NCBI RefSeq assembly: GCF_042242105.1
Contig: NC_092026.1
Coordinates: 20,240,001-20,304,000 of the forward strand
Reading direction: 5' to 3'
DNA: 64,000 bases
Origin: Pempheris klunzingeri
Lineage: Eukaryota; Chordata; Actinopteri; Acropomatiformes; Pempheridae
The translations under genes and the position numbers were made by a program. Below are positions 17,696 to 27,381 of the stretch, one piece after another. The notes beneath the pieces are model-generated. The model searched no databases and had not been told where the DNA came from. It saw nothing but the letters and a program-made list of their open reading frames with translations. Position 1 is the first letter of the stretch. Every line of letters begins with the position of its first letter.

Positions 17696-18268
17696 ATCTA
17701 CGGCCCAGTGGTGACTTATTGTGTCTCAATGGCTTCAGTATGAACTTCTAATTAACATCCACACCGTGATGAGCGTGGAGGCACGTTAGGATTTTTTTTT
17801 TGCTTTTGCCCAATCCGTCAACAAAACAATTCCGACCATCGGTCAAGGCGGAACCTTTGGTGCCGAAGTTCTGTTCCATAGCACAGAAAAGAGCGCTCGC
17901 TACTCTCATTTCCGGGTAGAGTTCAACATCTCCGACTTATGGATTAGTTACTTGTCGGAAATATTACTTTTAGGATAATATGGACAAAAATACCCATAAG
18001 CTCTACTGGTATTTTCAGACAATTTGAAAAAATAAAAGCAATAAAAAGGTGTTGCCATGGTAACGGCGATGCATCCACACTTTTTTGCCGAGGGGTGCAC
18101 GACGCATGCGCCGTTTTAAACACGGAGTGATTCATCTTGACACTATATGATCTTCAGCGGCACCGGCAGGGAAACGCGGTAGATGTTGGTGAAAGTTTTT
18201 ACCGCCCTCTTTGTTGCGTCCGTGTCCCTATATTACTGCACCCACCTTGTTATTTACAATAAGCCACA
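17696..18268. promoter_or_regulatory. Bidirectional mettl17/parp2 promoter interval
   Basis: The two start codons face away from each other across 573 bases. The interval contains a perfect X-box-type palindrome GTTGCCATGGTAAC at 18051-18064 (RFX factors), an NRF1-like CGCATGCGCC at 18103-18112 and an ETS-like TTTCCGG near 17909-17915. No TATA box is placed convincingly for either gene. NRF1 and ETS sites are usual for nuclear genes of mitochondrial proteins such as mettl17. Which sites serve which gene is inference. Confidence 0.7.
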
Positions 18269-21200
18269 ATGAGGCGTACAAGAAGTTCGAGAAATCAGGG
18301 TACGCCACAAAACGAAGAAGCCCAGTCAAACACAGGTTGGTGCTTGTTTTCCTGCTGGTAGTGTTAGCTTGACAGGTTAGCTAGCTACTGGTGGACATGT
18401 CTGCGCGAAAGGAGAGCAGGGAAATTACATGTGCAGTGTTTATGCCCCATGCAAAGTTTAAGAAGCGACCATTTTTATACCCAGACTGGCATGTTTACCT
18501 GTTACATGTTGACCATGTTAAAGCCTGTGAATACCTCTCAGTGTCAATGCATTATTAGTATAAAACTAAAGATCTTGGATGCTGATGGATGCCAGTGTTA
18601 TTGTTTATGAATTGATGAATAGTTACAACTAATGCAGTCTAATACAACAGTCCTTTGATAAATCCCTAAGGGGAAAGGTTCAGTTTTTCTTGAAACTAGG
18701 CTGTAGTTTGGGGTGCTGTTGAAGAAGCATCTGTCCACCATGTTGTTCATCCAAACTTATATGCAAATCAGGTTAAACTTTTCATTCAAGGCATCCTAAG
18801 GCAACATGATATTGTACAGTTATTTTAAGGGACATGCTGGTGGGGGGAAGTACTCAATATCAGCAGTAAGAATAATATTGGGCTTTTGTAGCTGATATCA
18901 GTCAATATCTGGATGTTAAGGCAAAGTTGCAAAGATTTTGGTTTTATTTCTTCTCTGCAGCACTTGTTTGGGATCAACCCACATTCATCTCTGTAAAAAC
19001 CTCTTCATCATAGATCTATATTTGATGGCAGACCGTAGACTGTGTGTGTCAGACTCAATTGTGTGTGTGTGCTCAGTGTGGCAGTGGAAAGGAGATGAAG
19101 GACAGTGGGAACCATACTCGCCCTCGACATGCTCCTTGTTGGACTCCGCGGTCTCTGCGGGAAAAACCTCTGTCACTCTGACTCTGGGCTCGGGGACGGC
19201 CTACGAAGTTGATCTGAAGAAGATGGTCCAGATTAATCCTGTCACCAAGTACAAGAGGAAGATTCGCTCTCAGACAGTAAAACCAGGTATATGTGTGTGT
19301 GTCTGTGTCTATATCTGTATTCTGTGTGTCATTATTTTACCTTAAATATGTCATTTATATTTTAGATCGTTGTCGTTTTATGTCTGTCATCCCCTCTGCT
19401 TGGATTATATTTTCTTAACTGTTGTTTTATTACATGGACTTCGGAGCCTTTTTTAATAGGAGTATTATATTGACTTTATACTGTTGTTTGTTCAGTTAAT
19501 TATGTGGTAATTATGACATTAGTGCATTATTGAAGGTATTTAAAATGTTTTTTCTGCTGTCTTCTTTTGTTCAGAAAATTTAAATGACGCTGGTGATTTG
19601 ACTGGTCAAAATGGCACGCCAGTGGAAGTTAAAGAGGAAGAGGAGGAGACGAAAGAGAAGCCTGCAGCGAAGAGAAGGAGAGGACAAAGCAAAAAGGAGA
19701 GTCAGATGAAAACTGAAGAAATGCCAAAAGAAGAAATGAACAGTAAAGGTAACCTGGATCTAACTTTCATACATCTGTGTAACACCATCAGAAATTCAAA
19801 TAGGATTTTAAAGTTGTTGATTAACTGATTACCCACAGAGTAACTATGGCAACACCATCAGGTGGTTTCTGTCTTTGCTGTTTCTAAACATGTCGGTTTA
19901 TACAGGTTAAAAGGAAACGGTGTCACCTGTACTTCATATTAGATGTCAGTCGACCTCATTAACAGTTTGTCTCTGATCTTCGGACGTTGAACAGAGGTTG
20001 TGAAGACGGTGGTCATGAAAGGAAAAGCCCCAGTGGACTCTGAATGCAAAGCCAAACTCGGAAAGGTCTGTGCACCTGCATCCCTCCGACATATGAAACT
20101 CACACTCGGTCACGCTTGTGGTTTGACACCAGTCTGAAGAGCCCTGTAAAGCATTGATCCAGTTACACTTCCCCGTGAGGGCATGATGCGTTTATGGTTT
20201 ATTATACATGAGTGTGTTGCTATTCTGTTAAATGTCTGATCTCAAATTAATCAAAAGTTAAATTTGATTGAGGTTTAGTTATTTTAGATGATCGTTATAC
20301 CCAGAGCAACTTGTTAGAAATGTACCGTACATAGAGTTTGATTTTTTGAACATTTAGTTTCTAGTATCCATCATGAGTTGTAGAAATATGGTGCAACACA
20401 AACAGTCACTGTTCCATGAGAAAAATATCCAAAATGCTAATGAATTAGTAAATCGTAATGTTTGCTCTTTGGATTTAATTATTAACCATTATATTGATTA
20501 CCTTTGCTTTAATAACACAGCCATACTAACTGAGCTGCAAATGATAATGAAAGTAATGTTTAGTTGCAGCCCTATTAGCAATAATTTATGGCTGCTTGAA
20601 GTGCTTGTTGGGCATTTTTTGTCCTTTTAACGTCCTTGTTTTTTAATATGTGAAAATGCAATGTGTCACTTCCTAAATCATTGCTGTCTTAACAAGCTGT
20701 ATAAAGAAATGAAAATAAACAATTTGCTTTCATATTCATCCCTTTACATGGTGCAAATCAGTTGAAGTTGCCTTCATTTATATCAACGACTGTTCAATTT
20801 CTCTTTCAGGCTCATGTTTACAGTGAAGGAAATGATGTTTACGACACGATGCTAAATCAGGTAAAATATTTCATTACATTTATTTACACTCAAAGCTGAG
20901 AAGGGCTGAAATCAAGTTAAGGCTTCAAAATTATCATATGAATTGTATTTTCTTGTTACGTTTTGATTAGTGGGAAAGCGAATTGATTTTCAGGCTTGCA
21001 GCAAATATGTCCTGTCTTATTTTTTTTTTTTAGACAAATCTTCAGTTTAACAACAACAAATACTACTTGATCCAGTTGTTGGAAGACGACAGCTCCAAAG
21101 CTTACAGTGTGTGGATGAGATGGGGCAGAGGTGAGCTTATGTGCTGATGATTCTTTACTGTATTTAAAAATTAACACAGGCCTGCAGTTCTCCTAAAAAC

Positions 21201-24200
21201 AAAACTAACTGATTGAATGTATCATGGTGATTTCTCCATTTTTCAGTGGGAAAAGTCGGTCAGAACAGCCTGACAGCCTGCGGCGGAGACCTGCTGAAAG
21301 CCAAAGATATCTTCAAGAAAAAGTAAGATTCTGCAATCAAAAAAACATTTCCAGATGTCTCACGTTGAACTGAGTGAAGGACAACTCTGAAACGTATTTA
21401 TTTTTTCTGTAGGTTCGTTGACAAGACCAAGAATGAGTGGGAACACCGAGCAAGTTTTGAGAAAGTAGCTGGGAAATATGACATGGTGTTCATGGACTAC
21501 AGTGCGAATGAAAAGGCAAGGAACAAGACAGCTTATAAATCTCCTCAGTGTCTCTCCTCAGAGGACTTGACAAACTGGGCATAGGAGATTCCATTGAATT
21601 GAAGGTGAGGTGTGTCATTGTGAACGCATACATATTTCACTGTTCCAGGAGGAGAACCAGACCAGTGTGGATGCTGCACCCAAAAAGAGGACCTGCGAGC
21701 TGGATGTGAAGATCCAGTCACTCCTGGAACTAATCTGTGACCTCAAAGCCATGGAGGAGTGTGTGCTGGAGATGAAGTTTGACACCCGCAAAGCTCCTCT
21801 TGGTCAGTCTCACAGAATCACAACCACAACAGAAATGTATCTTAGTTTGTCCCATTACACTCTTTAATTTCCACTGATAACTTTCCCAGTTGTTAATTTG
21901 ATTTCATTTAAACATTCAGATGTGATCCAAAGATGGAATTAAACAAGTTCTCACAGTCATGATTTTAACTCCTACTGTAGATTCAGCTGCTGACAAACAA
22001 GTAGTGCTTTAATTTTTTCACATCATGTTTCAGATTTAGTATTTGTCCTCCTACCTGCAGGCAAGCTGACCTCAGAGCAGATCCGTGCAGGCTACTCGGC
22101 GCTGAAGAAAATCGAGGCGTGTTTGAAGAAGAAGGGCAGCAGTCGAGAGCTGCTGGAAGCGTGCAATCAGTTCTACACACGCATCCCTCATGACTTTGGG
22201 TAAGGAATACATGGGTGTACACTAATCCTGTCCTGACACTGATGTCTGATAACAGAGAAGTGTTTCACATTGATTTCTGTGACTGAAAGATGTCATTCTC
22301 CAGGTTGAAAACTCCTCCGATCATCCGTACTGAAGATGAACTAAAGGAAAAAATTGCACTGTTGGAGGTAAAGGGGTTTCTCCGTTAATTGAGGTCAACA
22401 ATTTTTCTGTTTACTTCTGTGGTCCATACTTTGATATCTCTTGATATTTTTCCCCGTTTATTTGTTTTGTCAGGCTCTGGGTGACATTCAGATTGCAGTG
22501 AAAATGGTTCAGTCCAGTGAAGGAAGTGACGAACATCCTCTGGACAGACAGTACCGCGCTCTCCAGTGCCAACTGCAGCCTCTGGACTCCAGCTGCCAGG
22601 AGTACAAGGTACAAGGTGTTGTAATGATAAAGGTCCAGGTTTATCCGCTTGGACGAATACACAGGCACGCTCAACATCTATATGGTGCATTTATTATTTA
22701 TTTAATTTAATTTATTATTTAAGTCACCGAAATTATATCAAAACCAACTTATCAAAAAAAACAAAACAAGGACCAATAGGTTCAAGTCAGTCTGGATTTT
22801 CAAAGGACTAATAATCTGTTTGTTCTCTGTCAATCAGATTGCATGAAGCATGAAATTATCCAAGGCAACATATTATAATCCACAAAATGGTGAACTGCAC
22901 TGGTATTTTGTCAAAAATATGATAATGAAAAAAACCTTCTTCATGAGGTACCTTACACTTACATACCTACATATATCTGTATCTACTGTATATCTAAAAT
23001 GTTGGTGGGGCATCAAACAGCAACATTTTCTCTGTAGAGCTACCTTTCTGTGCCAACTTGAAGCCCTCATACAGGGAGGGAGGGAAGATGACCAGAATGC
23101 ACTGCAGCCACCACACAAACCAGAATTTGAATAACTTCAGTGGCTGCAAAATCTTACAAAATATTTGGTTTCTAATTGGCTTTATTTATTTTCTTATACA
23201 TGCTTTAATCATTTTTTTTTTTTTCATCTTTATTTAATTAGGCAGTCTCATTTAGGTTAAGATCTCTCTTCCAAGACAGACCTGAGAACAAGCAACATAC
23301 ACAAAAACACAAACAGCAGAACACAATAATAAGAATTAAAGACACACTTAGATGAAATAGTTTCAAGATAATAAGACTAAGGTTAAGTAGTTACAGGAAC
23401 ATGTGCTGTAGTTATTGGATTTAAATGTGAGAAGAGATATGAGGTAGTTTTTTTACTTGCTGTCCAAGTTCATCCCACCGGTGGTACAGAGAATAATGAT
23501 GAATCTGAAATTTGGCCGTGAGTTGAAAGAAACGCAAATAAAGTGAACGGATCCAGAATATTAAAGTGAAAGACATTTAAACTCCAATAAGCTGAGGTAC
23601 ATTTTGTGACGCCCGTGTTGTTTCCTCTTCTCTCCTTGTGAAGGTGGTAGAACAGTACCTACAGTCCACTCACGCCCCCACCCACCAGGACTACACCATG
23701 ACTGTCCTCGACATCTTCTCAGTGGACAGAGAAGGGGAGAGAGTCAACTTCCTGTCACAGTTACAAAACAGGTAACACACAGTGGGGTTAGTGTTTGTAT
23801 GAACTGTCAGCACACATGTGGGCTCTGATAAATACCATTACTGCTTCATGTTGTTGTTCTCTATGTGTTCTTGTGAATGTTCCACATTTGTCTGCATAGT
23901 GTCTTACAAAAATGTAAATGAGCTCTTCACATAGCCCACTAATCGATTAGTTGTCAATAATTAAATGAATTGCTTCTAATGAGTAACTAGTTTAGGGATG
24001 TTTTGGAATATTCGAATAGTTGTGTAGTGTATCTCCCTTTGGTTTTACGGGTGCCTGGTGGTATGCCCCTCAGGAGCAGTAGATTGATACAAGGAGTTGG
24101 AATAAAGTCAGGTTCCTGTAAAGATGTGGGCACAAACAGTGTTAAATGTGAATATTTTCTGGTTTCTTTACTCCTCTGTGACGGTAAACTGATTATCTTT

Positions 24201-27200
24201 AGGTTGTGGACAAAACAAGACTTTTGAGAACGTCACTGTGGGCATTTAAAACCATTTTCTGACATTTTATAGACCAAACAACTAATCGATTAATTGAGTA
24301 AATAGTTAAAAATTAACAGATATATCGATGATGAAAGTAATCATTAGTTGCAGCCGTACAGCTCACTACATCTGTCTGTCTGTCTGTCTGTCCAGGACTC
24401 TGTTGTGGCACGGGTCCCGTCTGTCTAACTGGGTCGGCATCCTGAGTCAGGGGCTCCGAGTGGCCCCACCCGAAGCCCCCGTCACTGGTTACATGGTAGG
24501 ATGTTCAGAAAAGCACTCGCATATTTCTCTTGATTCTTGCTTTATTTTTATAATCCAGCTACTTATTTTTGATTCCAGTGATAATGATTTTTCCCCATTT
24601 CTCTTTCATCTAGTTTGGAAAAGGTATCTACTTTGCTGACATGTCGTCAAAGAGCGCAAACTACTGCTTTGCTAATCAGCACAACCACGTTGGAATGCTG
24701 CTTCTGTGTGAGGTGACTTGATTCACTCTTTTCTGTGGCCCCATTAAATGTTTCGTCTGAAGTTTTTGGATTTGTTAAAATGTGTTTGAATTATGTGATG
24801 TGGCTCTTTAGACCTTATATGACCTTATACTTCATTTTCAAAAATGTGTGACATTTGACGAACATTTATTATGAACATTAGCATTTTTGGCTTTATTTAC
24901 CTTTTGTCAAGTAGACAAAACCTCATAAATAGATGAATATACCAGAGGTAAGAGAAACGCGGGAGTTTTATCATTGGTAGAGAAAACAAACAATTTCTCT
25001 ATCCAGTATAACTCGTATTAAAATTACTTTTAAGAAAACTTAAATAAGCCACTGAGGGATGAGCTTTTTTCCGGATGTTCTGAGCTAAAAATAAACCTGT
25101 GCCCATTGTCCAGTACTTGTAACATTTATGGATTTGGTGATCTGTCAATTCACTGGTTGTTTTACAGATCCTCACTGCATCAGATCAGCTTTGTCTATCA
25201 TTCAATCATAAAATCATAAATCATAATTCAAATTCAGCAAATTGAGAAAGCACAGCAGTCACGTTAACACGCTGCCACACTTGACACAAGAAGTGTTTGC
25301 TTTCCCCCATCACACATCTGACTGTGATCACTTGGAGCGCAACTATAAGCACTTCTCAATGTCTGTAAGAAACCAGTTTAGGCACTGTGACACAGAACCA
25401 AAACATTGAACTGAGCAGTGTTCTATTTGGCACCAATACTTGTACTGCTGCTAAGCTGCTTAATGATCCTGCCACTGAAGAAAGGAGTGTCAAAAACGTG
25501 TCCATTAATGTCACTGGCAAAAGAAACGTCTTATTCTCAAATTGTCCCAGTAGCTGGTGCTTACAGGCTGTTTATTTCAGACGCCGTAAACCTGCCAATA
25601 CAAGTCCACAACTCGAATTAACGATAAAACCAACATGATTTGATCACATTACATGTTTGGCTCGGATGTGATGCAGCGCTGTTTCAGTGCCTGGCTTTGT
25701 GTCTGCGTTTTGCTTGCAGGTCGCTCTGGGTGACTGTAATGAGCTGCTGGATGCCGACTACGAGGCCAACAATCTGCCTGCAGGAAAACACAGCACCAAA
25801 GGCCTGGGACAGACCGGACCCGACCCCAAAAACTCCGTCACTCTGTCAGTCTGTCTCATCACACTGATACATGTCATACAGGCCAAATATTGATTTAATT
25901 GTGCTCACTGTTACACAACGAGAGGGGGAGATTGTTAACTACATTGGCAAAGAAAAAAATGCAGGGTGACAAGCACAGAGAAAAGGGAAAATACAGGACT
26001 AGATCATCTGATGAAACATTTTTCAAAACAACCAACATCACTGGTGTGGTGTGCGTCCTACTTTGCTTACTGCTTTAACCAGGACCTTAAAAAGTCTTAA
26101 AATGTCTCAGATTCACATTTACAAGTAAAAGGCCTTAAATTAAAGTATTAAATAGTCTTGAATTCTGTTTGGGAAGGTCTTAAAATGTATTTATGTCATA
26201 CAGTTCAGCTACATTGAACATGTAACATCTGCAGCTCAGACAGGTGTAGTGATTAATCACATCAAGAACAAATACATTTTTTCACATAAATAAATGTCCT
26301 GCAATAAGTGTTCTTTAACTGAACCAGTTGTCATTTTGCCATAATTATACTTTTTAACTGACAGCACATGTCTAATTAAGCATCAATTTAATTAAGCTGC
26401 GATATTAAAAAGTCTTAAATTTAACTTGCTGATACATGTAGGCACCCTCTTTAACTTCTAAGTTACTATATGTTAGTGTTTGTAAAAGGTAAAAAGTCAC
26501 CAAATAATACACACTCTTTGGTTATATGCTATTCTTTAGCCATAAGTGTGTGCTTTAACAACAGGGCATCATTTAAAGTAATACATTTAGCTCAGAGAGC
26601 CAGGTGTCTGTATAAGTCTTGGCTGGATAAGCTGTGAACTCTTACTAACCTGAACCCTAAGTGTGAATACTAAATGCTGAACTCTGTTTGCTCTGTAGAG
26701 ACTCATTCACTAATGGACTGACCTCGCTTTCCTCTCATCTGTTCTGCCCTCTCTCCTGCTCCGCTGCCTCCTCTCTCTAGAGTTCACAGCCTGAAAAAAC
26801 ACTGCTTTTCATCACAGAACAGTCATCAGAGCATGAAACACCACTCATTTATTTTAGTGGCGTCCTTGAAATCCAAATCTGATACACCTCAGTAAACAAC
26901 TCGCAAATCACTGTAATGATTTGTCAATGAGTCGAAACAAAACTTAATGGGCAAATATTTTCATTATCGTTTACAACATCTTAAGCTTTTCTTGGTCCTA
27001 CATTATAGTAAACTGAACATTTGGGGGTTTGGATTATTGTTGACACACAAAACACACACACACAACTGCTGTTATGCACATCTTTCACCTTTTCCTGATG
27101 TTTTCTGGACTATTGGTCAAGAAAATAATGGTCAGATTAACCAGTAATGAAAATAATCGTTAGCTGTAGTGTTAAATAAGTGAACTTGTGACTAAGTGAC

Positions 27201-27381
27201 TTTTCTTTCTCTCTTTCTCAGGGATGGTGTGACCGTGCCAATGGGGCCGGGGGTAAAGACGGGGGTGGGTAAAAAAAATGCTTACTCCCTCTTGTACAAT
27301 GAGTTCATCGTTTACAACCCTGCTCAGACTCGCATGAGGTACCTGCTGCGGATCAAGTTCAACTACTCGTCACTGTGGTGA
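18269..27381 (+). CDS. parp2: PARP2 with an added N-terminal WWE domain (17 exons)
   Basis: Nuclear poly(ADP-ribose) polymerase 2, activated by DNA breaks. Exons: 18269-18335, 19077-19286, 19575-19748, 19995-20065, 20810-20860, 21034-21130, 21247-21322, 21413-21515, 21649-21802, 22061-22199, 22304-22367, 22474-22608, 23644-23771, 24396-24495, 24614-24712, 25720-25844, 27222-27381. All phases join to 650 aa (human about 583). Order: WWE domain (about 23-90, exon 2); charged linker with basic KRRRGQSKK (93-150); WGR domain (about 160-280, with MRWGRVGK); helical regulatory domain (about 300-430); ADP-ribosyltransferase domain (about 450-650). The catalytic H-Y-E triad is visible as [24 protein letters not shown] and LLYNEFIVY. 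The intron after exon 8 has a GC donor. The WWE exon explains the extra length. Confidence 0.97.
23938..24356. repeat. Dispersed teleost repeat, family A copy in parp2 intron 13
   Basis: Begins with ACTAATCGATTAGTTGTCAA and ends with AATCATTAGTTGCAGCC, with ATAGACCAAACAACTAATCG inside. The phrases are those of the copy at 14660-14985. It ends about 40 bases before the 3' splice site of parp2 exon 14. Confidence 0.6.
26060..26450. repeat. Dispersed repeat, family C, in parp2 intron 16
   Basis: AT-rich block in which AAAAAGTCTTAAA and near variants recur and which ends in TTAAATTTAACTTGCTGATA. Related phrases in the opposite orientation appear near 5740-5880. This is a non-coding dispersed repeat of uncertain class. 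Confidence 0.5.

Follow-up and report, generated by a model that had tools for sequence, protein, structure and literature searches.

The parp2 gene of the fish Pempheris klunzingeri contains a complete WWE domain, encoded by a single in-frame exon ahead of the WGR domain (Table 1; the window is the whole 64-kb stretch of DNA that was analysed). The encoded protein has the WWE-WGR-PARP architecture known from non-mammalian PARP2. We consider it probable that its WWE domain binds ADP-ribose, a chain's terminal ADP unit or a lone ADP-ribose being a likelier ligand than internal iso-ADP-ribose, with the result that PARP2 would be tethered at modified chromatin. PMC numbers given below refer to the available parts of the articles concerned.

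Table 1. Positions in the window of parp2, its exons and domains, and the UG runs next to the WWE exon
Feature	Positions	Strand	Basis
parp2 coding part, 17 exons, 650 aa	18269..27381	+	consistent phases, Pfam domains, best PDB match 6x0l_P
parp2 exon 1, 22 codons + 1 base, ends in phase 1	18269..18335	+	exon model
UG run, 12 nt, just before the acceptor of the WWE exon	19060..19071	+	repeat scan
parp2 exon 2, WWE domain exon, residues 23-92, 210 nt, symmetric phase 1-1	19077..19286	+	exon model, Pfam, Foldseek
UG run, 11 nt, just after the donor of the WWE exon	19292..19302	+	repeat scan
parp2 exon 3, lysine/glutamate-rich linker	19575..19748	+	exon model
parp2 exons 5-8, WGR domain region (Pfam WGR, residues 185-264)	20810..21515	+	exon model, Pfam
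parp2 exons 9-12, mainly PARP regulatory domain (Pfam PARP_reg, residues 299-429)	21649..22608	+	exon model, Pfam
parp2 exons 12-17, catalytic PARP domain (Pfam PARP, residues 444-644)	22474..27381	+	exon model, Pfam

In the exon model, the joined 650-residue PARP2 ends at a stop codon at 27381, and 15 of its 16 introns have GT-AG ends, the exception being the GC-AG intron that follows exon 8 (21516-21648). A preliminary description of this DNA had proposed an exon at 19077-19286 with matching phases and with the junctions 18335-19077 and 19286-19575. These junctions are those of the 17-exon model: the acceptor reads ctcag/TGTG and the donor CCAG/gtatat, and the 210-nt exon is entered and left in phase 1, which joins it in frame. 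Scanning the joined protein against Pfam returned, in this order, the WWE, WGR (84.1 bits), PARP_reg (154.5 bits) and catalytic PARP (259.4 bits) domains. The WWE match (PF02825) covers residues 23-86 and profile positions 2-66 of 67 at 66.4 bits (E 3e-18), against a gathering cut-off of 21.1 bits, as the preliminary description had led one to expect; residues 23-93 alone (71 residues) gave 70 bits (E 2.2e-19). Because the WWE match of 66-70 bits is accompanied by exact phases, the reading of 19077-19286 as a chance open reading frame or pseudo-exon was ruled out. Ahead of the coding part, a 29-codon reading frame (18183-18272) closes with a TGA whose first bases are shared with the start codon of parp2 (ATGA), and this frame could couple or restrain parp2 translation.

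The closest solved protein in the PDB was human PARP2 (chain 6x0l_P, E 2.7e-231), aligned over residues 120-650. This nearest match and the combination of WGR, PARP_reg and PARP identify the gene, by its sequence, as PARP2 (clade 1G). The fish and human proteins have the WGR-PARP_reg-PARP part in common; since the alignment starts only at residue 120, the fish WWE is without an aligned counterpart in human PARP2, in agreement with the earlier claim that the human enzyme carries no such domain. The WWE lies N-terminal to WGR, as it does in the WWE-bearing PARP2 of non-mammals.

Whether a WWE in fish PARP2 had already been catalogued was a question raised by the preliminary description. Because Perina et al. 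(2014; PMC4245714) report an N-terminal WWE in PARP2 homologues, with bird, frog and fish as examples, the WWE-WGR-PARP architecture of fish PARP2 is counted here as known and not new. The distribution of WWE-bearing PARP2 beyond this genome rests on that article, in the available parts of which exon structure, pocket analysis and mention of Pempheris klunzingeri were not found. The article cites birds for WWE-bearing PARP2, yet also finds PARP2 not detectable in, and likely lost from, birds, so that its bird example is in doubt. In the available text of Citarelli et al. (2010; PMC2964712), the PARP2 clade is given no domains other than WGR, PRD and PARP; the main text of that article nowhere uses the words fish or Danio. 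The human WWE-bearing PARPs are given as PARP7, PARP11, PARP12, PARP13 and PARP14, PARP2 not being among them (PMC11269756, 2024). The available sections of PMC1266365 and PMC10450202 contain no word on a WWE in PARP2, and our literature searches, within the portions of text that they covered, found no functional study of WWE-bearing PARP2.

When the fish's own 646 Mb genome was searched, exon 19077-19286 ranked fourth among the 16 WWE matches listed (E 2.1e-16), which, as a sequence match, is far beyond chance. Bearing on a possible second PARP2 copy, a WGR search of the same genome gave at least four exon-level matches at no fewer than three places, one of which is parp2 itself. By its sequence, the WWE of locus L003 belongs to RNF146 (match to 3V3L at E 6.9e-49), and L005 appears to be RNF146-like from its RING+WWE make-up and its likeness to L003; two RNF146-like RING-WWE genes, L003 on C18 and L005 on C8, were thus observed in the genome. 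Three loci (L001, L002 and L006) are putatively Deltex-type, a label given from our reading of their sequences. At L020 (G000:C16:22615411-22618575), a UIM and a WWE occur in one frame (1501-1665), and we take this locus to be PARP10-like. Zebrafish PARP10 carries a WWE (Perina et al.; PMC4245714). A tree of 13 WWE domains, made up of 12 of the 16 genome matches listed and human TRIP12 (L017, L018, L019 and L020, partial or intron-broken, were left out), did not place PARP2: one of its ten inner branches was well supported, and the long PARP2 and HUWE1 branches met. Among viral contigs 24 stretches fitted the pattern and none was confirmed as a relative, and the same was true of 150 stretches in bacterial and archaeal genome contigs.

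An AlphaFold2 model of the WWE exon, made from a single sequence and of low confidence (mean pLDDT 63.8), consists of strands and one helix, in an order that agrees with what we take to be that of WWE domains. Compared with the PDB by Foldseek, the model had WWE domains of HUWE1, TRIP12 or RNF146 at ranks 1-10 (query TM-scores 0.54-0.57), HUWE1 WWE chains being at the top, and a ribosome chain of low probability at rank 11. The best E value was 0.016, and none reached 0.001 or better. This ranking of a low-confidence model supports a WWE fold without proving it.

In a nine-row alignment of pocket residues (the PARP2 exon, L003, L005, L001, L002, L006, human HUWE1, human TRIP12 and L020), W26, Y65, Q74 and R83 of PARP2 align with Y107, Y144, Q153 and R163 of RNF146, R83 standing opposite R163 across a one-residue gap. 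These RNF146 residues contact the adenine and the proximal phosphate (PMC8853533; PMC11269756). The adenine/proximal-phosphate pocket (aromatic, Y, Q, R) of the PARP2 WWE therefore reads as intact in the alignment; L020, from the same genome, offers a contrast, with Y, Q and R replaced by H, E and V. The iso-ADP-ribose specificity of RNF146 has been attributed to Y107, R110, W114 and K175, which face the distal ribose and phosphate (PMC11269756), and in this alignment only one of the four is kept in PARP2: W26 takes the place of Y107, D29 that of R110, W33 matches W114, and K175 is absent. PARP2 thus shares with RNF146 the adenine/proximal-phosphate pocket and W114 but not the distal contacts Y107, R110 and K175, whereas L003 and L005 have all seven published iso-ADP-ribose residues. 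Its distal loop carries D29/E30. The HUWE1 and TRIP12 rows have the same letters as PARP2 at the mapped places; like PARP2, these two WWEs have W at the Y107 place, an acidic distal loop and the Y, Q and R, although they are hosted by ubiquitin ligases and not by a PARP.

The WWE pockets of HUWE1 and TRIP12 are reported to read PAR at its terminal ADP unit, and the available text of PMC11269756 offers an explanation for this with which W at the Y107 place, D29/E30 and the missing K175 agree; it is for this reason that reading of the terminal ADP is favoured for PARP2. The residue map removes the RNF146-type argument for iso-ADP-ribose and leans towards chain-end reading, without proving it. 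All three Deltex-type rows (L001, L002 and L006) carry PARP2's letters at all seven mapped places, and since the W/D/no-K pattern is common to Deltex-type WWEs too, the pattern does not settle the ligand. The best PDB sequence match of the PARP2 WWE is that of DTX1, although Deltex is a ubiquitin ligase with two WWEs in tandem and PARP2 has a single WWE. The DTX1 WWE is reported to prefer iso-ADP-ribose over ADP-ribose, though weakly (PMC11269756). It is quite unlikely, but not without evidence in its favour, that the PARP2 WWE is an iso-ADP-ribose reader, as first proposed: W33 at the W114 place, the conserved adenine pocket and the pattern shared with Deltex-type WWEs speak for it, but the equivalents of Y107, R110 and K175 are W, D and absent. 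What stands of the original proposal is that the enzyme carries a full, in-frame WWE that plausibly reads its own product; what is weakened is RNF146-like binding of iso-ADP-ribose.

Binding need not be tight even where the pocket is conserved, as the weak affinities reported for the TRIP12 and DTX1 WWEs with ADP-ribose illustrate (PMC11269756). These affinities, and the fact that the nearest solved WWEs by sequence (DTX1, TRIP12 and HUWE1) all belong to E3 ligases, would fit a WWE that serves chiefly in protein-protein interaction, perhaps with partners from the ubiquitin pathway, and binds ADP-ribose weakly or incidentally. We regard such a module as unlikely: all four adenine/proximal-phosphate residues are kept, and since the host protein itself makes poly(ADP-ribose), reading that product is the more economical explanation.

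The splice sites of exon 2, called good in the preliminary description, are at exactly the positions claimed; by score they are acceptable rather than strong. With a small leave-one-out matrix built from parp2's own sites, the donor scored 5.8 (other parp2 exons, -3.2 to 8.6) and the acceptor 4.3 (other exons, -8.8 to 12.9); across the window, 4.9% of 3977 GT sites and 7.5% of 4014 AG sites do equally well or better. The acceptor tract is UG-rich, not pyrimidine-rich. UG runs of at least 11 nt number five on the + strand of the window, two of which flank the WWE exon, while those at other parp2 intron ends are 6 nt or shorter (within 60 nt). UG repeats are binding sites of the splicing factors CELF and TDP-43. 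Skipping exon 2 would leave the frame unchanged, and the UG runs and this frame-neutral skipping may be taken as a hint of cassette splicing, as a lead only. That transcripts seldom include exon 2, or skip it as a cassette, so that PARP2 is made mainly in a mammal-like form without a WWE, we consider highly improbable: the preserved frame, the acceptor tract and the flanking runs would suit it, but frame and pocket residues are intact, as in a used exon, the splice scores lie inside the gene's own range, and the TG repeats may be plain microsatellites. A more elaborate scheme is very unlikely in our estimation: by gripping PAR at the terminal ADP unit, which is where chains are extended, fish PARP2 would steer between elongation, branching and new starts, and skipping of the exon under the control of the UG repeats would let each cell choose between WWE-bearing and mammal-like PARP2.

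As a reader of ADP-ribose, the WWE of fish PARP2 would prefer a lone ADP-ribose or the ADP unit at the end of a chain, as reported for HUWE1 and TRIP12, and would grip ADP-ribose that PARP1 or PARP2 had attached earlier; PARP2 would thereby be tethered at modified chromatin and further modification there favoured. Binding, ligand preference and any effect on chain shape are what we infer for this domain. In human PARP2, the N-terminal region, which lacks a WWE, is reported to bind PAR, to suffice for PARP1-dependent recruitment to damage and to be needed for branched chains (PMC6089979). The fish protein has a candidate folded reader at the corresponding position, and it keeps a charged linker too. 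By analogy, the role of the fish WWE would most likely be to bring PARP2 to sites that already bear ADP-ribose and to activate it there.

The residue map poses a sharp alternative for this domain, the chain end versus internal iso-ADP-ribose. The human N-terminal region has been claimed to be a sensor of PAR, and a fish PARP2 with a discrete candidate ADP-ribose reader, where the human enzyme has none, offers a natural comparison for that claim.
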